26,094 nt of DNA, taken from a virus. Made by a program: the position numbers and the translations under genes. This document shows, one piece after another, positions 3,724 to 26,094 of this stretch (its first letter is position 1; every line of letters starts with the position of its first letter). The stretch is from the IMG/VR virus record IMGVR_UViG_3300020171_001274, positions 1 through 26,094 of that record, one strand, 5' to 3'. The notes under the pieces were generated by a model. The model saw only the letters and a list, made by a program, of their open reading frames with translations, was not told the origin of the DNA and searched no databases.

Positions 3724-4417
3724 AAAAAAGTGTTTTTAAAATAACATTTGTATCCCATTTATTAAAATGATCTCTTTCCCAATTTTCTGATTTTTTAAAA
3801 TATTCTGGAAATCCTATTTTTCTTATATCATGATCTATAAATAATTTCATTCCGTGTTTTAATGCCTTATATGCTAATATCCAACAATCACCACTATACC
3901 ACTTATCCATATCTTCTTCAAATTTTATTTCTTTTAATCTTTTAGAAGGAAACATTGCAAAATTAATTTCGTATCCATTCCAATTTATTTCTTCAAGTCC
4001 ACTTTTAAGATCTTCTTTTAAATCGAAAGGTTTTAAACAACCTTCTCGATATTCTTTAAATGTAGGTCTCTTACCGCTTGTTCCTCCTGTACAAACTGCT
4101 GCATCTTCTTTATAAATCCTATACCAATTCCACATTCTTTTAAATGAATCATCTGGAATCCAAATATAATCTTGTAAAAATACTGTTAACTTTCCAGATA
4201 CCATATCAATTGCTTCATTGTATGCAGAATTTAGATTCCATACACATCCTTCTCTTGGTGGTTTTGGTTTAAAGCATTTATATCCCATTATCTTTCTATC
4301 AAGTTCATCGCCAATAATAACTTCAAAATCTTGAAAAGTTTGTCGTTTAAGATTGTCTTTTAATATATCAATTCCATATTTATTTTTAGTTAGATATATT
4401 ACACTTATTTTCGACAT
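3698..4417 (-). CDS. Glycosyltransferase, GT2/GT-A type
   Basis: A 239-residue protein starting with a GT-A-type strand (I-S-V-I-Y-L-T-K-N) and R-Q-T-F-Q-D-F-E-V-I-I-G-D, the usual GT2 N-terminal pattern. L-T-V-F-L-Q-D-Y near residue 80 stands where the DXD motif is expected, but the aspartate pair is degenerate (Q-D-Y), so the metal site may be altered. W-Y-S-G-D-C-W lies near residue 170. It overlaps the aminotransferase gene by 13 bases and the methyltransferase gene by 26 bases. Probably part of one sugar-modification operon. Confidence 0.7.
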   Translation of the reverse strand: MSKISVIYLTKNKYGIDILKDNLKRQTFQDFEVIIGDELDRKIMGYKCFKPKPPREGCVWNLNSAYNEAIDMVSGKLTVFLQDYIWIPDDSFKRMWNWYRIYKEDAAVCTGGTSGKRPTFKEYREGCLKPFDLKEDLKSGLEEINWNGYEINFAMFPSKRLKEIKFEEDMDKWYSGDCWILAYKALKHGMKLFIDHDIRKIGFPEYFKKSENWERDHFNKWDTNVILKTLFYEKKLYQE

Positions 4418-5508
4418 ATTAGAGTATTAAGCTTTTTCACCACATACTTAGCATCTTCTAATGTCATTCTAATATTAATAGGAATATATAAATATTTAGA
4501 TTCGATCTTATCCATATTTGGGCAATTTGTTTTAAACTTTTTAAATATCGTAAATTCATCATTACGAATATGGGCCATATTCGTCTCAATTCCTGCTTCT
4601 TTTAATTCTTTAGCAATCCTATCTCTATCATCTACTAATATACCTGCTAACCAATACGATCCTCCAATAATAACTGGACATTTAAGATTATTTTTATAAT
4701 ATTCACCAATTTTTTTTCTATACTTTAACCATTTATCTGAATTTTTCAATCCACTTATTGCTATACTAGCAGCTACGTCATTCATTTGAAATTTATATCC
4801 AGCTTCTTCAATATCCATTGTCATTTCTCTCTGTTTATAAGGTTGCCAATCATTTCTCATTTTAGATTCTCTATCAATCCCAAACCATCTTAATCTTTTA
4901 GCTCTTTTATATTGTTTTTTATTTCGAAGAACTAACATTCCACCATCACCAGAAGTAAAATGTTTAATAGCTTGGAATGAATAACAAATATAATCTCCTT
5001 GTTTTTCGGGTACTCCTAAACTTTGAGCAGCATCTATTATTATTGGTATTCCAAATCTTTGACTAATTTTAAAAATTTCTTTATCAATTGGTAATCCTCC
5101 TAACGTTACTACTACAATAGCTTTTGTTTTTAATCGAATCTTTGCTTTAACACTATTAGGATCTATTGTTAAATCATTTTTTATATCTACAAAAACTGGT
5201 ATCACTCCTTTTCGTAATAGTGGTATATTAGTGGCTGTACATGTCAATACTGGAACAATCACTTCGTCACCTGGTTTTAATCCCAACAAATGATAAGCAA
5301 GTTCTAAAGCTGACGATCCTGAATTTGTAGATAAACAATATTCATAATTAAATTTTTTACCAAATTCTTTTTCTAATTCTTTAGTAACTGGACCTTCTCC
5401 AAGCCAACGATTACTCATATCTTCTGGAAAAAGTTCTTTAATTTTATCTTGAATATCTTTACCATCGTAACTTGGCCAGAATAGATTAATAATCTTTTTA
5501 TTCTTCAT
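4405..5508 (-). CDS. DegT/DnrJ/EryC1 family PLP aminotransferase
   Basis: A 367-residue protein from the ATG at 5508 (an earlier in-frame start at 5541 would overlap the upstream gene). It has the family layout: T-N-S-G-S-S-A-L for cofactor phosphate binding, V-P-V-L-T-C-T-A-T-N, I-I-I-D-A-A-Q-S containing the PLP-contacting Asp, and S-F-Q-A-I-K-H-F with the Schiff-base lysine (about residue 182), followed by S-G-D-G-G-M. Members make amino sugars from nucleotide-linked keto-sugars. Here it may supply an unusual amino sugar to the neighbouring glycosyltransferases. No SD is visible. The gene starts one base after the upstream stop. Confidence 0.88.
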   Translation of the reverse strand: MKNKKIINLFWPSYDGKDIQDKIKELFPEDMSNRWLGEGPVTKELEKEFGKKFNYEYCLSTNSGSSALELAYHLLGLKPGDEVIVPVLTCTATNIPLLRKGVIPVFVDIKNDLTIDPNSVKAKIRLKTKAIVVVTLGGLPIDKEIFKISQRFGIPIIIDAAQSLGVPEKQGDYICYSFQAIKHFTSGDGGMLVLRNKKQYKRAKRLRWFGIDRESKMRNDWQPYKQREMTMDIEEAGYKFQMNDVAASIAISGLKNSDKWLKYRKKIGEYYKNNLKCPVIIGGSYWLAGILVDDRDRIAKELKEAGIETNMAHIRNDEFTIFKKFKTNCPNMDKIESKYLYIPINIRMTLEDAKYVVKKLNTLICRK

Positions 5509-6274: not shown

Positions 6275-6338
6275 ATATTTTAATTTTTAAAAGATTTGAA
6301 CTTTTATTTTGAATAAAAATCTAAATTCTTTTTAAAAT

Positions 6339-6968
6339 TTATTTTAAACTATAAGCACAGTAGATTAATTGTCGGGTTTGAAAATCTATAATACTTCCTC
6401 TTTTTTCAATTAATTTTTTCAATTCTTTTTCTTTATAAATTCTAAGATGTTCTTTTGCATCATCTCCAATATTATTAATTCCATACGGTCCACTCCATTC
6501 TGGTGTTGTTAAAAATATAGTTCCATTAAAATTCAAATGTTTTTCTGCTGTTTTCAAAACTTTTTCAGGATTTTCAACATGTTCTATAACTTCACAAAGA
6601 AAAATATTATCAAATTTTTCAGTACTTTTAATATCTTCTATTTTTCCTTGAAGATAAATCGAATTTGGTAAATGGTTTCTATTTAAAAAATTATTACAAA
6701 AATCAACTGCTTTTCTACTTAAATCTATCCCTACCACCCTTCTTCCCCAATATGCATATCCTAAAGATAAAATTCCATTATTACAACCAAGATCTAATAT
6801 ACTTCCAGATTTCAATAAAGAATGAATCCATTTCGATCTATATAGATATTCCTGTACATTTAATAAATCTCCATCGTTGGGTTTATCAATATCTAAATCT
6901 TCATAATGTTTTTCATCAAACCGTATTTTATTTATGGAAAATATGTTTCCAAATTTTATACCCATCAT
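6339..6968 (-). CDS. Class I SAM-dependent methyltransferase (MT11/23-like)
   Basis: A 209-residue protein. L-D-L-G-C-N-N-G at 58-65 is SAM motif I, V-V-G-I-D-L-S near 78-84 is motif II with the acidic ribose-binding residue, and L-C-E-V-I-E-H-V-E-N-P near 124-134 is the post-motif typical of UbiG/Methyltransf_11-23 enzymes. Small-molecule or sugar methylation is likely; the substrate is unknown. The start overlaps the end of the membrane peptidase gene by 41 bases; an ATG pair (M-M) opens the frame and no SD is evident. Confidence 0.8.
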   Translation of the reverse strand: MMGIKFGNIFSINKIRFDEKHYEDLDIDKPNDGDLLNVQEYLYRSKWIHSLLKSGSILDLGCNNGILSLGYAYWGRRVVGIDLSRKAVDFCNNFLNRNHLPNSIYLQGKIEDIKSTEKFDNIFLCEVIEHVENPEKVLKTAEKHLNFNGTIFLTTPEWSGPYGINNIGDDAKEHLRIYKEKELKKLIEKRGSIIDFQTRQLIYCAYSLK

Positions 6969-8183: not shown

Positions 8184-10646
8184 TTACTTTTTTAAAAATT
8201 CTTGATGCCATTGTTGAGTGACCTGATCCCAATTAAACTTCTTCTTAGCCCAGGGAATCATTTCTTTTCTAATTCTTTCTTGTTTATGAGGATTTCTTAA
8301 TAAATCTACAACATAGTCTACTATTTCGTTTTGAGCAGCTTCATTACTATAAATATCATTACATTTAATTTTCTTACCAAACTGCACTGTTTCGTCTAAT
8401 GCTGCTATATTAGTAGTTGCTGGTATTGCTCCACCTGCTTGAGCTTTCATCATAGAAATACATGAGATTTCTGTAAACTGAGTAGGATAAAAATAAATAC
8501 TAGATTCTAAATATTTTTTAGCAACTTCTTCATGAGTTATTCTTCCTAAATCTTTAACACCATCTTGTTCTTGCATTTCTAATATCTTTTTTCTCCAAGT
8601 CATTTGTTGAAAATCTTCTTGATAAACACTCAACCAAGTTTGCCAACCATAACAAATATCAAGAGTTGCTTCTGGAACTTTCTCTTTAATTTTTGAAAAT
8701 AACTTTAAAACTAATTCTAATCCTCTATCTTGAGCTGCAGTATATAGTAATTTATAAGGATCTCGTTTAGTAATCTGGAATGATTCTTCTTCTCCATTTT
8801 TATAACCACATTTATCACAATAATATTTTTCATCCTTAATTTCAATATCTTCATTTTGACAATTTGGACATCTCCAATTGTTAAATTGTTCTGAATTGAT
8901 TCCATTAGCTGAAATCATAAATTTATCATCTGGAATATCTGGATATAATGTTCTATGCCATTTAGATAACGGAAATATTTTTGTAATATTTTTTAATCTT
9001 TGAGGAGTAAATTCATTTTGTAGAATAGTATCATGTAACCAAACATATTTTTGTTTAGCACTAACTTGATGATTATATAATATTGGAGTTCTCCATGATA
9101 CTATAACATCTCTTTCATCTCTATAATTAAATTCCCAATGTGGTTTCCATAAAACTTTTCCATGTTTTTTTGCTTCATGTCCACAAGAATTATAAACTGT
9201 TACATTCCATCCTAAATCAGCTAATCTTGGAGCAAGATTAAGAATCGCTTCTTCAGATCCTCCCATCCCTGTTGTTTTAGCAATTTCAGGATTCCAATTT
9301 TCTGAAGTTTCAAAACAATAAATATCTAAATCTTTACCTGAAGATTTAGTTTTAACAAAATGAATATTTCTTAAATAGCAAAGTTTAGGATGTGATTTTA
9401 ATTTATCTGGAACTGAATCAAGTAACTTCTTAATTTTTTCTTTAGTATTACATTTTTCTATTTTATTACAAATCTTATCAACAATATCTAATTCATTACA
9501 GATTTTCTTTATTTCGTTAGCATATTTTATTAATTCCTTATGCTTTGGAAACATTTCTATTAAACCTTTGTGAGATTTTGTTTTTCTAAAAAAGTTTGAT
9601 TTAGTACCTACTAAAATTCGTAATGCTTCGTGAGGTTGGTTTAATTGATAAAAAGTTTTTGCTAAAAGCATCAAAGGATTAAAATCATAATCTCTTGGAT
9701 TCCACACTACAGTTTGATTTTCTGGTGGTGTTTTTGTTAATCCTGTAGTTAAAAATTCTTTAGCATGTTTGAATTTTCTAGCATTAAAACAACTTTGAGC
9801 AAGCGAATAATAAGAATCAGGATACCAAGGTCTAATTCTAAGAGCTTCTAAAGCACATTCTATAGATCTTTCGTAGTCATTAATTTTAAAGAAAATATTA
9901 CTAATTCTATTCCAAGCTAAATATATTTCTTCTTCTGATCCTGATTTTTGAACAAATTCAAAAAATGTTTCTATAGATTCTTTAAAATTTCCAATCATAT
10001 AAGAAGAATTAGCATGGTTCCATAAAATTCTTGGATCTGATTTATTCTCTTTTAAATCCTTCTTAGTAATACGATAATTTCTTTGAATAGCAATATCTAC
10101 CCTTTGATGGTTCGTTAAATGACAAACTTGAATATCTTTACAGAAATAATTAACTACTTTTCTTTTTTCAATTAAGTCTTCGTGTAATTTTCCTTTCCAT
10201 TCGTAAGAATTATTATTTCTAATAATTCTTATTTTGTTATGTTTAACAGTACATTCTCCATGTTCGTTAAAATCATAAAGATAAGGAAGAATTATTCCAT
10301 CAACATTATCATCTGTCTTTTTTATTATATTTTCAATGTACTTTGAACCTTTAACAACATCATCACAATCTAACCACATTATAAAATCATAATCTTTAGG
10401 TACTTGAGAAAAATTAAAGTTTCGAGCAGCAGCAAAATCATCACACCATTCAAAATAAGAAATATTTGCTTTTGCTTGTTCTGCGACTAATTTAACTTTT
10501 TCTCCTTCAGGATCTCCTTCTTTACATGTAATTGTGATAAAAATATCATCTACTTTATTATGTAATCCTTCAGTACTTAATAATCTATAAAGTACATCAG
10601 ATTCTTTATCGCTTGATTTGGCTATAATACAAAGTGCTATTTTCAT
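8184..10646 (-). CDS. Two-headed glycosyltransferase: GT2 + TPR + GT-B with zinc ribbon
   Basis: An 820-residue protein. Residues 1-190 form a GT2-like GT-A domain with W-L-D-C-D-D (91-96) as the metal-binding site and W-K-G-K-L-H-E-D (150-157) as in related TPR-linked GT2 enzymes. Residues about 200-345 contain TPR-type helical repeats. Residues 440-820 form a GT-B domain (M-G-G-S-E-E-A at 461-467; T-E-I-S-C near 725-729). Between the two GT-B half-domains lies a zinc ribbon, C593/C596 and C610/C613, which is unusual. The gene has a good SD (AAGGAG). It probably adds two different sugars or builds an oligosaccharide, with the TPR region holding the acceptor. Confidence 0.85.
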   Translation of the reverse strand: MKIALCIIAKSSDKESDVLYRLLSTEGLHNKVDDIFITITCKEGDPEGEKVKLVAEQAKANISYFEWCDDFAAARNFNFSQVPKDYDFIMWLDCDDVVKGSKYIENIIKKTDDNVDGIILPYLYDFNEHGECTVKHNKIRIIRNNNSYEWKGKLHEDLIEKRKVVNYFCKDIQVCHLTNHQRVDIAIQRNYRITKKDLKENKSDPRILWNHANSSYMIGNFKESIETFFEFVQKSGSEEEIYLAWNRISNIFFKINDYERSIECALEALRIRPWYPDSYYSLAQSCFNARKFKHAKEFLTTGLTKTPPENQTVVWNPRDYDFNPLMLLAKTFYQLNQPHEALRILVGTKSNFFRKTKSHKGLIEMFPKHKELIKYANEIKKICNELDIVDKICNKIEKCNTKEKIKKLLDSVPDKLKSHPKLCYLRNIHFVKTKSSGKDLDIYCFETSENWNPEIAKTTGMGGSEEAILNLAPRLADLGWNVTVYNSCGHEAKKHGKVLWKPHWEFNYRDERDVIVSWRTPILYNHQVSAKQKYVWLHDTILQNEFTPQRLKNITKIFPLSKWHRTLYPDIPDDKFMISANGINSEQFNNWRCPNCQNEDIEIKDEKYYCDKCGYKNGEEESFQITKRDPYKLLYTAAQDRGLELVLKLFSKIKEKVPEATLDICYGWQTWLSVYQEDFQQMTWRKKILEMQEQDGVKDLGRITHEEVAKKYLESSIYFYPTQFTEISCISMMKAQAGGAIPATTNIAALDETVQFGKKIKCNDIYSNEAAQNEIVDYVVDLLRNPHKQERIRKEMIPWAKKKFNWDQVTQQWHQEFLKK

Positions 10647-20694: not shown

Positions 20695-20723
20695 AATATA
20701 CCACATATTTGGAATAGTGGCAA
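20695..20723 (-). promoter_or_regulatory. Late promoter (sigma70-like) for head module
   Basis: Read on the minus strand: TTGCCA (20723-20718), a 17-base spacer, then TATATT (20700-20695), the -35/-10 pattern of housekeeping promoters. It is placed correctly to drive the whole minus-strand head operon starting at 20656. Confidence 0.6.
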
Positions 20724-20781
20724 CGGGTCCCAACTGGATTTTTATAAAAATTTGTGGGAGGGGGATAATAGTAATAACGTA

Positions 20782-20803
20782 GGGGCAGGGGAGGGGTGGG
20801 GGG
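20782..20803 (+). other. Strong G-quadruplex motif
   Basis: Four runs of at least four G separated by 1-2 bases (GGGG-CA-GGGG-A-GGGG-T-GGGGGG), preceded nearby by GGGAGGGGG (about 20756-20764). It lies in the divergent control region between the late (minus) and early (plus) promoters of a genome that is otherwise AT-rich. Such short loops favour a very stable quadruplex in DNA or plus-strand RNA. Confidence 0.75.
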
Positions 20804-20855
20804 TGTCGTAGTATCTACATCTTGCGTTTCTTATTATTTCGCCTTATAATTTCCG

Positions 20856-21143: not shown

Positions 21144-21164
21144 ATAATTATAATAAAGAAAGTA

Positions 21165-21181
21165 GGATAGGTCTTTCAAAA
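21165..21181 (+). promoter_or_regulatory. Leader element A: core GGATAGG + boxA-like
   Basis: Core GGATAGG (21165-21171) directly followed by TCTTTCAAAA, 7 bases before the ATG. There is no SD at normal distance. The core is exactly complementary (7 bp) to CCTATCC in the loop of the hairpin that ends the same unit (21465-21471). Confidence 0.8.
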
Positions 21182-21443: not shown

Positions 21444-21451
21444 TTCTATAG

Positions 21452-21490
21452 AATACTTCTTATTCCTATCCGATAAGAAGTATTTTTTTT
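21452..21490 (+). terminator. Terminator A with loop complementary to leader A
   Basis: A perfect 12-bp stem, AATACTTCTTAT (21452-21463) with ATAAGAAGTATT (21473-21484), loop TCCTATCCG (21464-21472), then a run of eight T. This is a classical Rho-independent terminator. Loop bases 21465-21471 pair with the core GGATAGG of the unit's own leader. Confidence 0.9.
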
Positions 21491-21653: not shown

Positions 21654-21687
21654 GCATTTTACGCGAATTAAGCGCTAATCAAACGAA

Positions 21688-21706
21688 GGGTGAGTTCGTT
21701 TATAAT
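21688..21706 (+). promoter_or_regulatory. Leader element B: core GGGTGAG + boxA-like
   Basis: Core GGGTGAG (21688-21694) followed by TTCGTTTATAAT (21695-21706), 5 bases before the ATG. The core pairs with the 7-base loop CTCACTC of hairpin B: six Watson-Crick pairs and one G-U. Confidence 0.75.
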
Positions 21707-21918: not shown

Positions 21919-21931
21919 TTCAAATCTATAG

Positions 21932-21970
21932 AATACTCCATATTCTCACTCAATGTGGAGTATTTTTTTT
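21932..21970 (+). terminator. Terminator B with loop complementary to leader B
   Basis: A 13-bp stem with one G-U pair, AATACTCCATATT (21932-21944) with AATGTGGAGTATT (21952-21964). The loop CTCACTC (21945-21951) consists of exactly the seven bases that pair with GGGTGAG of the unit's leader. A run of eight T ends at 21970. Confidence 0.9.
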
Positions 21971-22033
21971 CCACGCAACTTAGATTTCTGCTGACGAACC
22001 CAAGGTTTGAAATTACAACGGCAGGGCACGCAA

Positions 22034-22132
22034 CATTCCAAATCTATTCCAAATGCCTCCCCGAAGCAATTTCGCACCAGTTGATACTAATAATGAAGAT
22101 TCTGCTTCGGCCATTCCAAATCTATTCCAAAT
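22034..22132 (+). repeat. Iteron-like repeats flanking an inverted repeat
   Basis: A 21-base sequence occurs exactly twice (22034-22054 and 22112-22132). Each copy is itself a doubled ATTCCAAAT in an 11-base rhythm, so there are four copies in all. Between them CCGAAGCA (22061-22068) and TGCTTCGG (22103-22110) form an 8-bp inverted repeat. It sits in a 605-base stretch without a convincing gene (21919-22523). Such an arrangement is typical of replication origins or multi-site operators. Confidence 0.6.
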
Positions 22133-22195
22133 ACATAGAGATTTTAGACGAATTTGTAGGATTTTAAGGTTCTTGTGTGTGAAATTGACATTTCC

Positions 22196-22238
22196 TCCCG
22201 ACTAAATAGATAGATTTCCCGACTAAATAGATAGATTT
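22196..22238 (+). repeat. Tandem 21-base repeat, two copies
   Basis: Two consecutive copies of a 21-base unit (starting 22196 and 22217) built on TCCCGACTAAATAGATAGAT. GATA/TAGA words continue to about 22303. A TTGACA at 22185-22190 precedes it but has only a poor -10. Possible operator or origin component. Confidence 0.6.
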
Positions 22239-22421
22239 TTTGAATCAAACAAAGGAAGAGAGACAAATTTAGTAATGAAATGAATAGAAATAGAATAGAT
22301 AGGTGTATATTTGATATTATATGTATTGATATGGTGGTATTAACTTTAATGACCTGTCTAAAGGAATAGTTTTTCCCCCGCGCTAAATTCTAAGGATTCG
22401 CAACTAAGTTACTTATACAAT

Positions 22422-22476: not shown

Positions 22477-22511
22477 TGTTCTTTCAAACGAACTAATTGT
22501 ATAGGGATAGG
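22477..22511 (+). promoter_or_regulatory. Leader element C: displaced boxA-like, core GGATAGG
   Basis: Core GGATAGG (22505-22511) lies 12 bases before the ATG at 22524. Unlike the other units, the boxA-like sequence (GTTCTTTCAAACGAAC, 22479-22494) lies upstream of the core, and it is inside a possible six-codon leader ORF (22477-22497). The core is complementary (7 bp) to the loop of hairpin C. Confidence 0.65.
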
Positions 22512-22523
22512 TATACTTATATT

Positions 22524-22805: not shown

Positions 22806-22858
22806 CTATTCTTTAGTTCATTATTATCCTATCCTAATAGTGAACTAAGATAATAGTT
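22804..22858 (+). terminator. Long hairpin C with loop complementary to leader C
   Basis: Inner stem 22812-22826 with 22835-22849 (15 bp including G-U pairs) and outer stem AACTATT (22804-22810) with AATAGTT (22852-22858), separated by a small internal loop. The apical loop TCCTATCC (22827-22834) contains CCTATCC, complementary to core GGATAGG of the unit. Only TTTC follows, so termination may be incomplete. Confidence 0.85.
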
Positions 22859-23017: not shown

Positions 23018-23032
23018 TTAACACAGCGAATA

Positions 23033-23051
23033 GGACAGGTTCGTTAACAAT
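23033..23051 (+). promoter_or_regulatory. Leader element D: core GGACAGG + boxA-like
   Basis: Core GGACAGG (23033-23039) followed by TTCGTTAACAAT (23040-23051), two bases before the ATG. The core pairs with TCTGTCC in the loop of hairpin D (six Watson-Crick, one G-U). The boxA-like part matches the E. coli rrn boxA (TGCTCTTTAACAAT) except for small changes. Confidence 0.8.
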
Positions 23052-23053
23052 TT

Positions 23054-23257
23054 ATGATTGAAACTGATTTAACTAACAAGTCAAACGCGTATCTTAGTAA
23101 ATATCGTATAGCAGATTGGAGAGATATTCCTGGGTTACTTGAAGAAATTGATTCCGAATTAAAACAATTTAATTTAGAATTAGATTTAGGTAACTGCGCT
23201 GACGATAACTATTGGATTCGTATTGTTAAAAGGAAAGGAGGTGGTAAAAATGTTTGA
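23054..23257 (+). CDS. Early hypothetical protein, unit D gene 1
   Basis: A 67-residue protein with D-W-R-D-I-P-G-L near residue 21 and a basic tail; function unknown. It has no SD: the ATG directly follows the leader element. Its last codons contain the GGAGGTGG SD of the next gene, which overlaps it by 8 bases. Confidence 0.65.
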   Translation: MIETDLTNKSNAYLSKYRIADWRDIPGLLEEIDSELKQFNLELDLGNCADDNYWIRIVKRKGGGKNV

Positions 23258-23468
23258 TAGTTACGTTTTCGTTTTAGAGTTTATGGAGTTAGATGAGGAT
23301 TTAATTGAGGAGAAAATAGATAGAGCGATACAGTATGACTATGATAATGGAAATCTTTCGCCAGAAGATGAAGAAGGAGGAAAGACGCTTCAGGAATGGC
23401 AAGATGACGAAGATGAAAGGAAGAGATGTTATAACTACATTGCTTCTTACTTCCCAATTTATTTTTAA
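23250..23468 (+). CDS. Early acidic hypothetical protein, unit D gene 2
   Basis: A 72-residue, very acidic protein (E-E, D-D-E-D-E near residue 51). The ATG at 23250 has a strong SD (AAAGGAGGTGG); a TTG 9 codons earlier in frame is not needed. Acidic small proteins of early phage regions often act as DNA mimics or bind host enzymes, but nothing specific is visible here. Confidence 0.65.
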   Translation: MFDSYVFVLEFMELDEDLIEEKIDRAIQYDYDNGNLSPEDEEGGKTLQEWQDDEDERKRCYNYIASYFPIYF

Positions 23469-23479
23469 TTTTTCATAGA

Positions 23480-23512
23480 GTTTATTATTATATCTGTCCA
23501 ATAATAATAAAC
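23480..23512 (+). terminator. Hairpin D with loop complementary to leader D
   Basis: A perfect 12-bp stem, GTTTATTATTAT (23480-23491) with ATAATAATAAAC (23501-23512), and loop ATCTGTCCA (23492-23500). TCTGTCC (23493-23499) pairs with core GGACAGG of the unit. No U-tract follows and no promoter lies before unit E, so read-through to E is expected. Confidence 0.8.
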
Positions 23513-23545
23513 TTCATTGAGGAACTAAGTATTAACATAGCGAAA

Positions 23546-23563
23546 GGTTGGTTCGTTAACAAT
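23546..23563 (+). promoter_or_regulatory. Leader element E: core GGTTGG + boxA-like
   Basis: GGTTGG (23546-23551) followed by TTCGTTAACAAT (23552-23563), three bases before the ATG. It shares long flanks with leader D (ATTAACAyAGCGAA before, the same boxA-like part after), while the core differs. GGTTGGT is exactly complementary to ACCAACC in hairpin E. Confidence 0.85.
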
Positions 23564-23566
23564 ATA

Positions 23567-23782
23567 ATGATTAAAAAGATGAATAAAGTAACAATGCAAA
23601 TGATAATAAAGCAATCACAACTGGGCGAAAAGTTTATTAGCAAACTTGGTGAATTAGTCAAAGAAACTATAGAGGACGGAGTTCAAATGAAATTATCAGA
23701 ACAGCAAACAAAAGATGTAATCAAAACTACATTTGTTATTTTAAGTAGAAAATCAACGGAAGGAGGTGAGTTTAATGACTAA
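23567..23782 (+). CDS. Early hypothetical protein, unit E gene 1
   Basis: A 71-residue helical protein (M-Q-M-I-I-K-Q-S-Q-L-G-E near residue 10) of unknown function. SD-less start after the leader element; the SD of the next gene (GGAGGTG) lies in its last codons and the two overlap by 8 bases. Confidence 0.65.
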   Translation: MIKKMNKVTMQMIIKQSQLGEKFISKLGELVKETIEDGVQMKLSEQQTKDVIKTTFVILSRKSTEGGEFND

Positions 23783-23918
23783 ACAACAATGCGAGCAACT
23801 CCAGGATAGTATAATAACTTACTGTGATGGACTTCCTGAGGAACTTATAGATAACTTATGTGATGCAGTTGTCTCATACTATAACGCTCACAAAACAGAA
23901 GGAGGTGAAACGAAATGA
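23775..23918 (+). CDS. Early hypothetical protein, unit E gene 2
   Basis: A 47-residue acidic protein with three cysteines (6, 17, 29). Strong SD (AAGGAGGTGAG) 5 bases before the ATG; its stop overlaps the next start by 4 bases (ATGA), and its last codons carry the next SD. Unknown function. Confidence 0.65.
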   Translation: MTKQQCEQLQDSIITYCDGLPEELIDNLCDAVVSYYNAHKTEGGETK

Positions 23919-24067
23919 AAATAGATAGAATGAATTATAATGTAGCCATTGATAGAGGATTTATTATATGGGAAGGCAATGATGAAGGTATATGGTATGC
24001 AAGAAGTCAAGACAGGAATGACGAAGATTACGGAAAAGTATATCAAATCATAGGATACATTGATTAA
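23915..24067 (+). CDS. Early hypothetical protein, unit E gene 3
   Basis: A 50-residue protein rich in Tyr, Asp and Ile with two Trp residues, probably a small beta fold (I-I-W-E-G-N-D-E-G-I-W-Y-A-R). SD GAAGGAGGTGAAA. Last gene before hairpin E. Unknown function. Confidence 0.6.
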   Translation: MKIDRMNYNVAIDRGFIIWEGNDEGIWYARSQDRNDEDYGKVYQIIGYID

Positions 24068-24075
24068 CATATCTA

Positions 24076-24116
24076 AGGGTTTACTACAGATTACCAACCG
24101 ATTTGTAGTAAATCTT
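24076..24116 (+). terminator. Hairpin E with loop complementary to leader E
   Basis: The stem is 24076-24091 with 24101-24116 (16 bp including three G-U pairs; the centre TTTACTACA/TGTAGTAAA is exact). The loop TACCAACCG (24092-24100) contains ACCAACC, which pairs with GGTTGGT of leader E about 540 bases upstream, with three genes in between. Only a weak T-rich tail follows. Confidence 0.85.
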
Positions 24117-24138
24117 ATTGATACGTGAATCTATAATT

Positions 24139-24186
24139 AGTTATGCAGAGTGTGCCCTTGATTTTGGATTTTGAATATAATATAAT
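24139..24186 (+). promoter_or_regulatory. Early promoter of unit X with AGTTATGC box
   Basis: AGTTATGC (24139-24146), 11 bases, TTGATT (24158-24163), 17 bases, TATAAT (24181-24186; an alternative -10 lies at 24176-24181). The leader is very short, 24 bases from the -10 box to the ATG, and has a normal SD and no core. Confidence 0.8.
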
Positions 24187-24210
24187 GGAATAGAAGGGAG
24201 GTGAATAATA

Positions 24211-24390
24211 ATGAAAAAAGAATTAAAAAATCAAATTGACGAAGAATTAGATGACATTGTTCGTGAAATTAGGATAGTTGTTACTGACTATGTTGCTAAC
24301 AACTTAGACGCTTTTGACGTTGTTAAAGATTTTGACGAACAAAGCGAAGCAATGGACTATATTGTTCAAGAACTTAGGAAATGTTTGTAA
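24211..24390 (+). CDS. Early acidic hypothetical protein, unit X gene 1
   Basis: A 59-residue, Glu/Asp-rich helical protein (E-E-L-D-D-I-V-R-E-I near residue 11). Strong SD GGGAGGTG. It is the only first gene of a promoter-driven early unit with an SD instead of a boxA-like leader. Unknown function. Confidence 0.65.
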   Translation: MKKELKNQIDEELDDIVREIRIVVTDYVANNLDAFDVVKDFDEQSEAMDYIVQELRKCL

Positions 24391-24409
24391 AGAAAGGAGG
24401 TGATAATAG

Positions 24410-24616
24410 ATGACTGAAGTTAAAATAACTGAGGATAAGTTTGAACAATATCAATCAGTTCGCAATAGCGGAATGACAAATATGTTTGATGTCAAACAAG
24501 TTATTAACTTATCTGATGACTTAACTCGTGAAGAAGTTCTTAATATAATGAGTAACTATGCAACTTACGAAAAACAATATCAGAAAGGAGGTGAATCAAA
24601 TGAAGATAATAGTTAA
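24410..24616 (+). CDS. DUF5049-like protein, unit X gene 2
   Basis: A 68-residue protein. The segment V-R-N-S-G-M-T-N-M-F-D-V (17-28) followed by V-I-N-L is like the V-R-x-S-G-x-T-N-M-F-D signature of DUF5049-type phage proteins; the role is unknown. Strong SD (AAAGGAGGTGA). Its end overlaps the next gene by 17 bases. Confidence 0.65.
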   Translation: MTEVKITEDKFEQYQSVRNSGMTNMFDVKQVINLSDDLTREEVLNIMSNYATYEKQYQKGGESNEDNS

Positions 24617-24809
24617 CAAACCATTCGGTAGACAATCTGTCTTAATGAGTAAGAATTTAGTTAAAGTAACTGCTTTTTTACTTGAGCATAAGATTAAAAA
24701 ATGGATATTTGATACGACAATAGATATTTTCAAAACCGGCAGCCCGCAAGTAATCATTCGCCATACTTATAAAAAGGAAGGCGACCATATATCTTATCCT
24801 ATCAGGTAG
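24600..24809 (+). CDS. Early hypothetical protein, unit X gene 3
   Basis: A 69-residue basic protein starting at the ATG at 24600, chosen for its SD (AAAGGAGGTGAA); an in-frame start at 24558 would give 14 more residues but has no SD. Contains W-I-F-D-T-T-I-D-I-F near residue 36 and ends G-D-H-I-S-Y-P-I-R. Unknown function. Confidence 0.65.
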   Translation: MKIIVNKPFGRQSVLMSKNLVKVTAFLLEHKIKKWIFDTTIDIFKTGSPQVIIRHTYKKEGDHISYPIR

Positions 24810-24821
24810 TTTACTTCTTAA

Positions 24822-24845
24822 CTCTGCTCATTTATGTGAGTAGAG
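24822..24845 (+). terminator. Hairpin X without core-complementary loop
   Basis: CTCTGCTCA (24822-24830) with TGAGTAGAG (24837-24845), 9 bp with one G-U, loop TTTATG. No U-tract. The loop has no match to any leader core, consistent with unit X having no core. Confidence 0.6.
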
Positions 24846-24868
24846 ATTAGGAAATAATTAAAGGAGAA

Positions 24869-24886
24869 GGTCGGCTCTTTCAAAAC
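24869..24886 (+). promoter_or_regulatory. Leader element F: core GGTCGG + boxA-like
   Basis: GGTCGG (24869-24874) followed by CTCTTTCAAAAC (24875-24886), two bases before the ATG. Exactly complementary (6 bp) to CCGACC in hairpin F. No promoter in the 24 bases between hairpin X and this element. Confidence 0.8.
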
Positions 24887-25195: not shown

Positions 25196-25230
25196 CTTGC
25201 TTATTAGCTACCGACCAGTTAGTAAGTAAG
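25196..25230 (+). terminator. Hairpin F with loop complementary to leader F
   Basis: 25196-25208 pairs with 25218-25230 (13 bp including three G-U). The loop TACCGACCA (25209-25217) contains CCGACC, complementary to GGTCGG. CGACCAG (25212-25218), which takes in the closing base of the stem, is also fully complementary to the core of the next leader. No U-tract. Confidence 0.8.
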
Positions 25231-25249
25231 AATAAGAAGTGAAGGACTT

Positions 25250-25268
25250 CTGGTCGTTCTTTCAAAAA
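25250..25268 (+). promoter_or_regulatory. Leader element G: core CTGGTCG + boxA-like
   Basis: CTGGTCG (25250-25256) followed by TTCTTTCAAAAA (25257-25268), one base before the ATG. It pairs with TGACCAG of hairpin G (six Watson-Crick, one G-U) and also with CGACCAG at hairpin F (seven Watson-Crick), 32 bases upstream. Confidence 0.75.
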
Positions 25269-25833: not shown

Positions 25834-25867
25834 TTTTGCCTATTATTGACCAGAATAGTAGGCAAAA
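25834..25867 (+). terminator. Hairpin G with loop complementary to leader G
   Basis: TTTTGCCTATTA (25834-25845) pairs with TAGTAGGCAAAA (25856-25867), 12 bp with one G-U, extendable by two A-T pairs. The loop TTGACCAGAA contains TGACCAG (25847-25853), which pairs with CTGGTCG of leader G. No U-tract; leader H follows 23 bases on. Confidence 0.85.
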
Positions 25868-25890: not shown

Positions 25891-25909
25891 TCGTTGGCTC
25901 TTTAACAAT
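25891..25909 (+). promoter_or_regulatory. Leader element H: core TCGTTGG + boxA
   Basis: TCGTTGG (25891-25897) followed by CTCTTTAACAAT (25898-25909), one base before the ATG. GCTCTTTAACAAT is identical to the core of the E. coli rrn boxA. The partner hairpin lies outside the window. Confidence 0.75.
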
Positions 25910-25910
25910 T

Positions 25911-26094
25911 ATGTCAACAAGGTGTCAAGTTGCGTTTTATGAAAATGCAAACGAAAAAGATTTGCGTAAATTTCATACTTTAATCTACCGTCATTCAGAT
26001 GGATATCCTGAAGAACCTGGAGTGTTAAACGACTTAAAAGAATTTTTCAAGAAATGGATACCTACAGGACGAATAGCAGATGTAGAATACACTT
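25911..26094 (+). CDS. Conserved phage hypothetical protein, 5' part, unit H
   Basis: The first 61 codons are visible; the gene continues past the window. It begins M-S-T-R-C-Q-V-A-F-Y and has I-Y-R-H-S-D-G-Y-P-E (25-34), a start and motif I associate with a widespread family of phage hypothetical proteins of unknown function. SD-less start after the leader element. Confidence 0.7.
   Translation, partial: MSTRCQVAFYENANEKDLRKFHTLIYRHSDGYPEEPGVLNDLKEFFKKWIPTGRIADVEYT

Follow-up and report, generated by a model that had tools for sequence, protein, structure and literature searches.

Complementary hairpin loops are familiar from systems of the RNAI/RNAII type, where fully complementary 7-nt loops kiss in trans between two RNAs. 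Contact between the two ends of one message is also described. In the type I toxin mRNAs hok and aapA3, pairing of the 5' and 3' ends is established and represses translation, with the 3' end of aapA3 hiding the Shine-Dalgarno sequence (SD) (PMC6733600). In the icaR mRNA of Staphylococcus aureus, a 7-nt motif in the 3' UTR pairs with the SD near the start of its own message, which yields an RNase III site and is repressive (PMC3868564). The 3'-CITEs of plant RNA viruses work in the opposite direction: a loop of the structured 3' element kisses complementary sequence near the 5' end and promotes translation (PMC5712577). In bacteria, pairing in cis between the ends of an mRNA has so far been known from single cases.

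We examined a window of 26,094 nt, which is an entire virus record, and found an array of such end-to-end pairs in its early region. In seven of the eight complete units, each of one to three small early genes, one hairpin stands just 5' of the ATG (H5) and a strong one directly behind the unit's last stop codon (H3), and their loops pair. The features are as follows, with unit I being the one that precedes unit H.

21158-21177, plus strand: H5 of unit A, loop TAGGATAGGT
21448-21488, plus strand: H3 of unit A, loop TTCCTATCCGA, then a T-run
21681-21701, plus strand: H5 of unit B, AAACGAA-GGGTGAG-TTCGTTT
21930-21966, plus strand: H3 of unit B, loop CTCACTC, then a T-run
22499-22516, plus strand: H5 of unit C, GTATA-GGGATAGG-TATAC
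22812-22849, plus strand: H3 of unit C, loop TCCTATCC
23025-23045, plus strand: H5 of unit D, AGCGAA-TAGGACAGG-TTCGTT
23475-23517, plus strand: H3 of unit D, loop ATCTGTCCA
23538-23558, plus strand: H5 of unit E, TAGCGAA-AGGTTGG-TTCGTTA
24076-24116, plus strand: H3 of unit E, loop TACCAACCG
24211-24809, plus strand: unit F, the exception to the rule, three genes with strong SDs and no H5
24822-24845, plus strand: hairpin after unit F, loop TTTATG, without a partner in the unit F leader
24861-24880, plus strand: H5 of unit G, AAGGAG-AAGGTCGG-CTCTTT
25196-25230, plus strand: H3 of unit G, loop ACCGACC
25240-25264, plus strand: H5 of unit I, loop CTTCTGGTCGT
25834-25867, plus strand: H3 of unit I, loop TTGACCAGAA, outer helix TTAAGTT/AACTTAA
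25883-25902, plus strand: H5 of unit H, AAGAG-TTGTCGTTGG-CTCTT, apical loop containing the core TCGTTGG (25891-25897)
25898-25910, plus strand: SD-less conserved start context CTCTTTAACAATT, preceding the ATG at 25911
25911-26094, plus strand: gene H (MSTRCQVAFY...), truncated at the record end

The H5 hairpins have stems of 4 to 7 bp and loops of 6 to 10 nt and are separated from the first ATG by a few to about 13 nt. Those at the other end are larger, with stems of about 11 to 15 bp and loops of 6 to 13 nt depending on where the stem closes. H3 starts within about 15 nt of the stop codon and usually stands on an outer helix that lies near that codon or contains it, with a small internal loop. 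The kissing codes (H5/H3) are GGATAGG/CCTATCC in units A and C, GGGTGAG/CTCACTC in B, GGACAGGT/ATCTGTCC in D, GGTTGGT/ACCAACC in E, GGTCGG/CCGACC in G, and TTCTGGTCG/TGACCAGAA in I; because A and C have the same code, the codes are not all unique. The T-run seen after the H3 of A and B is missing after the others, and a terminator scan gave no terminator-like site.

These units share complementary hairpin loops with RNAI/RNAII, but the partners here are the two ends of one unit, in cis, rather than two RNAs in trans. Like the hok and aapA mRNAs, each paired unit has a 3' end predicted from complementarity to pair with its own 5' region. Those toxin mRNAs, whose systems comprise a small toxic membrane peptide and an antisense RNA, are single messages, however, and are not described as an array of differing loop-loop codes in a phage early region; nor does the pairing here hide an SD, the paired first genes having none. 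The likeness to icaR lies in a 3' motif that pairs close to the message's own start, whereas in the phage the first genes are SD-less and both partners are hairpin loops. As in kissing-loop 3'-CITEs, the loop of a 5'-proximal hairpin has its complement in the loop of a structured 3' element; the viral elements, which bind translation factors or ribosomal subunits, are eukaryotic and cap-independent and belong to plant RNA viruses, while the phage has many pairs per DNA genome, with one private code per unit.

Related viral contigs were collected by terminase and capsid searches, and five phages entered the count (the window, or G000, plus G001, G029, G002, and L335), with 30 units having both hairpins. 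The H5 and H3 loops pair over at least 6 bp in 27 of the 30 (helices of 6 to 10 bp; 26 different cores), compared with 38 of 870 non-cognate combinations (4.4%), and the mean pairing energy is -10.6 kcal/mol for cognate versus -3.4 kcal/mol for non-cognate loops. Thus, the hairpins, the complementarity of their loops, and its cognate specificity recur computationally in five phages with changed codes. The exceptions are unit F of the window, unit 4 of G029, and unit 2 of G002, and unit 5 of G001 pairs over only 5 bp.

Since the cores are short and AT-rich hairpins are common, complementarity could in principle have arisen by chance and been selected by eye. With the loop boundaries set by hand, the summed energy was -317.7, and the best of 200,000 permutations reached -179.4. 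We repeated the comparison blind, taking positions -36 to -8 of each leader and 17 nt around the center of the strongest downstream hairpin, cut regardless of pairing; the observed value was -382.8 and the best of 200,000 permutations -283.4. In the blind windows, only 9 of 32 leaders ranked their own H3 first, most of the others ranking it second or third. Permutations thus never approach the observed value, relatives repeat the pairing with other codes, and chance, to which we assign next to no probability, is refuted; the pairing rule is real and lies far beyond chance. An automatic scan of the other fetched loci gave 0.56 to 0.77 chance hits per Mb below 45% GC, rising with GC, compared with 8 hits in 16 kb of L098 (part of G001) and 5 in 8.5 kb of L163 (part of G029). 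The match of a leader to the hairpin just upstream of it is rare (2 of 25 at 6 bp); the partner is therefore the hairpin of the same unit, and the pair brackets the gene unit.

Modular units, each bracketed by inverted structures, might also suggest a function at the level of DNA, as cruciforms, recombination sites, or cassette boundaries. Against this stand the G-U pairs, which occur in stems and in 9 of the 27 kissing helices, the fixed spacing to start and stop codons, and the different stems at the two ends, which are not inverted duplicates of each other. We consider a DNA-level role highly improbable; the G-U pairs and the codon spacing point to a contact that would be made in RNA.

The relatives differ in how many units they carry. 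In G001 (47% terminase large subunit [TerL] identity), nine of ten H5/H3 units pair over at least 6 bp; L335 (TerL, 48%) has three paired units, and G002 has one paired unit of two. Of the G029 units (TerL, 41%), seven kiss, one is unpaired, and two have extended 5'-3' duplexes. In these last two, the kissing hairpins are replaced by panhandles (L163:3997-4055 with 4604-4644 and L163:5667-5723 with 6289-6343; -63 and -57 kcal/mol), which also contain G-U pairs. Three window genes have homologues among the relatives. Gene I and unit 8 of G001 have similar codes with changes on both sides (CTTCTGGTCG/TTGACCAGAA versus CTACTGGCCG/TTATGGCCAGTAG). For gene E and the homologous unit 7 of G001, the codes differ, each being complementary (GGTTGGT/ACCAACC versus AGACTAG/CTAGTCT). 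The homologue of gene H, unit 8 of G029, had no kissing pair that we could find but folds into a panhandle of -57.0 kcal/mol (shuffles: mean, -27.7; sd, 4.2). What is conserved is the contact between the start and the end of a unit, and its sequence is not kept.

No units were found at L110 and L111, which match the leader pattern, and no paired-unit cluster was found in the stretches scanned of G006, G016, G020, G021, G024, G027, G028, G030, and G033. A major-capsid search of the genome contigs gave no match. Two different genes of L335 are followed by highly similar H3 elements (4270-4330 and 4670-4720, minus strand), the second gene having an SD-like leader and no H5. Another G029 leader hairpin (L163:7886-7905; AATCGTA-GTCGTCAA-TACGATT) belongs to a unit cut by the record end, and its partner would lie past the 25,030-base contig.

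Unit H is likewise cut, its 3' end lying beyond the record. The sequence-only reading had placed the core TCGTTGG at a fixed position before CTCTTTAACAAT in this leader, and it is there, at 25891-25897, with CTCTTTAACAAT adjoining at 25898-25909 and the ATG next at 25911. This 12-nt element has a single exact match in the 26,094-nt window; looser versions occur in the remaining leaders (TTCGTTAACAAT, CTCTTTCAAAAC, GTTCTTTCAAAA, GTCTTTCAAAAT). The differences among leaders arise because the first half of the element forms the 3' arm of the hairpin and co-varies with the 5' arm. In the window leaders, the 3' arm of H5 is followed by a TTAACAA/TTCAAAA-like stretch and then the ATG. That reading proposed that a leader core and the loop of its own unit's end hairpin are complementary, a rule borne out in the window and in the relatives; the reading's description of the core as a leader element gives way to the apical loop of a hairpin, so a contact with the end hairpin would be loop to loop.

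The same reading predicted CCAACG in the loop that ends unit H. Unit 1 of G001 has the same core (TCGTTGGT) and the H3 loop ACCAACGA, which is exactly the code predicted for unit H, and G002 has the pair GTCGTTGA/TCAACGGC. By the rule, we judge CCAACG in that loop to be very probable; the direct prediction is likely and not proven. We rate it no higher because the G029 homologue has a panhandle in place of a kissing hairpin. That homologue (L163:5723-6292; 46 to 54% identity over the part present) is the only close one of gene H and was found by reading the G029 early region and by alignment. Gene-H peptide patterns had found no relative in the viral contigs or the first thirteen relatives. 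Alignment A2 brought in more distant gene-H homologues, and of their records only that of G029 had a cluster of paired units.

Start signals separate the early genes of the window. At the first gene of a paired unit, the anti-SD energy is never stronger than -3.8 kcal/mol, whereas the six other early genes reach about -14 kcal/mol, with very strong SDs (GGAGGTGA; 23223-24809) in unit-internal genes and in unit F. Two of the G029 leaders score -4.8 and -7.1. A few starts were taken 1 to 2 bases off the ATG in this scoring (unit C of the window and two in relatives), which leaves the picture unchanged. It is important to note that an SD is missing from most late minus-strand genes of the window too, so its absence by itself does not prove that initiation is special; together with the strong-SD early genes, two or three start styles coexist in one phage. 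We abandoned the idea that the G-rich cores are SD-like, because the cores of G001 and G029 do not resemble an SD.

We consider it rather probable, from sequence and predicted folding, that the TCGTTGG hairpin forms the 5' member of an RNA pair acting in cis and that kissing loops close each early unit and act on translation and/or stability. Within the RNA, the H5 and H3 loops would kiss through a complementary code that is private to their unit, and such a complex would be expected to form in cells; kissing would close the unit into a ring that brings its stop codon next to its start codon. The closed loop may then influence how the SD-less first gene is initiated, how long the message lasts, or both. 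A more specific version is possible, if somewhat unlikely: SD-less closed-loop translation in a DNA phage family, with orthogonal kissing codes joining stop and start, so that ribosomes would be handed from end to start or only intact messages would be translated.

The contact could instead be repressive. Once H3 is made, the kissing complex would lock H5 beside the start codon and block ribosomes, and translation would occur only while the RNA is nascent or after 3' trimming, as in hok and aapA3. Pairing of 5' and 3' ends does block translation in aapA3, hok, and icaR, and H5 sits where the initiating ribosome would be. However, aapA3 and icaR sequester an SD, and why a phage would use private codes to shut off the majority of its early genes is not obvious. 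We regard repression as unlikely. The first genes of paired units carry no SD, which leaves nothing for repression to hide, and for this reason we lean toward a positive role of the closed loop, with processing or stability almost as likely.

In that last alternative, H3, with its internal loop and outer helix, would be an intergenic endonuclease site in a long transcript, and the kissing pair would protect the processed ends, affecting translation only indirectly. The gap from H3 to the next H5 is 9 to 23 nt at four places in the window, which is short for a separate promoter and means that several units are probably on one transcript. Promoter claims are weak, since promoter matches (42) are only mildly above shuffles (mean, 31.1; sd, 5.4). 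The recurring internal loops and outer helices, and the G029 panhandles, which look like processing stalks, fit the same explanation, but it accounts neither for the position of H5 always just before the ATG nor for the absence of SDs from exactly these early genes. On balance, we rate this explanation as less likely than not, though a real possibility.

A literature search gave no DNA-phage precedent for paired kissing hairpins, which, given narrow terms and partial coverage, is weak evidence of novelty. Here, a small family of uncultivated phages has many different loop-loop codes. Almost every early unit has one, the codes have drifted while their two sides still match, and they may control the translation or the keeping of early messages. 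A prokaryotic closed-loop mRNA is thereby directly testable with simple compensatory mutants, and natural kissing pairs are on offer for RNA engineering.

Searches of Rfam gave three matches, all below the gathering score, and a Pfam scan of nine early proteins gave no confident family. A G-rich stretch, ggggcaggggaggggtggggggtg, lies ahead of the early region (20720-20810), with a similar one in the close relative L005 (240-300, minus strand), and the gene-poor stretch 22030-22240 has short direct repeats (cattccaaatctattccaaat; cccgactaaatagatagattt). The window phage encodes a terminase large subunit, a phrog_1328 major head protein, and glycosyltransferase-like domains. Within the genome collection, the nearest terminase (46%) comes from a 7-kb contig in a Caldisericia bin, which hints weakly at the host. 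At 8184-10646 (minus strand), an 820-aa protein matches two glycosyltransferase families (phrog_13126 and phrog_2170).
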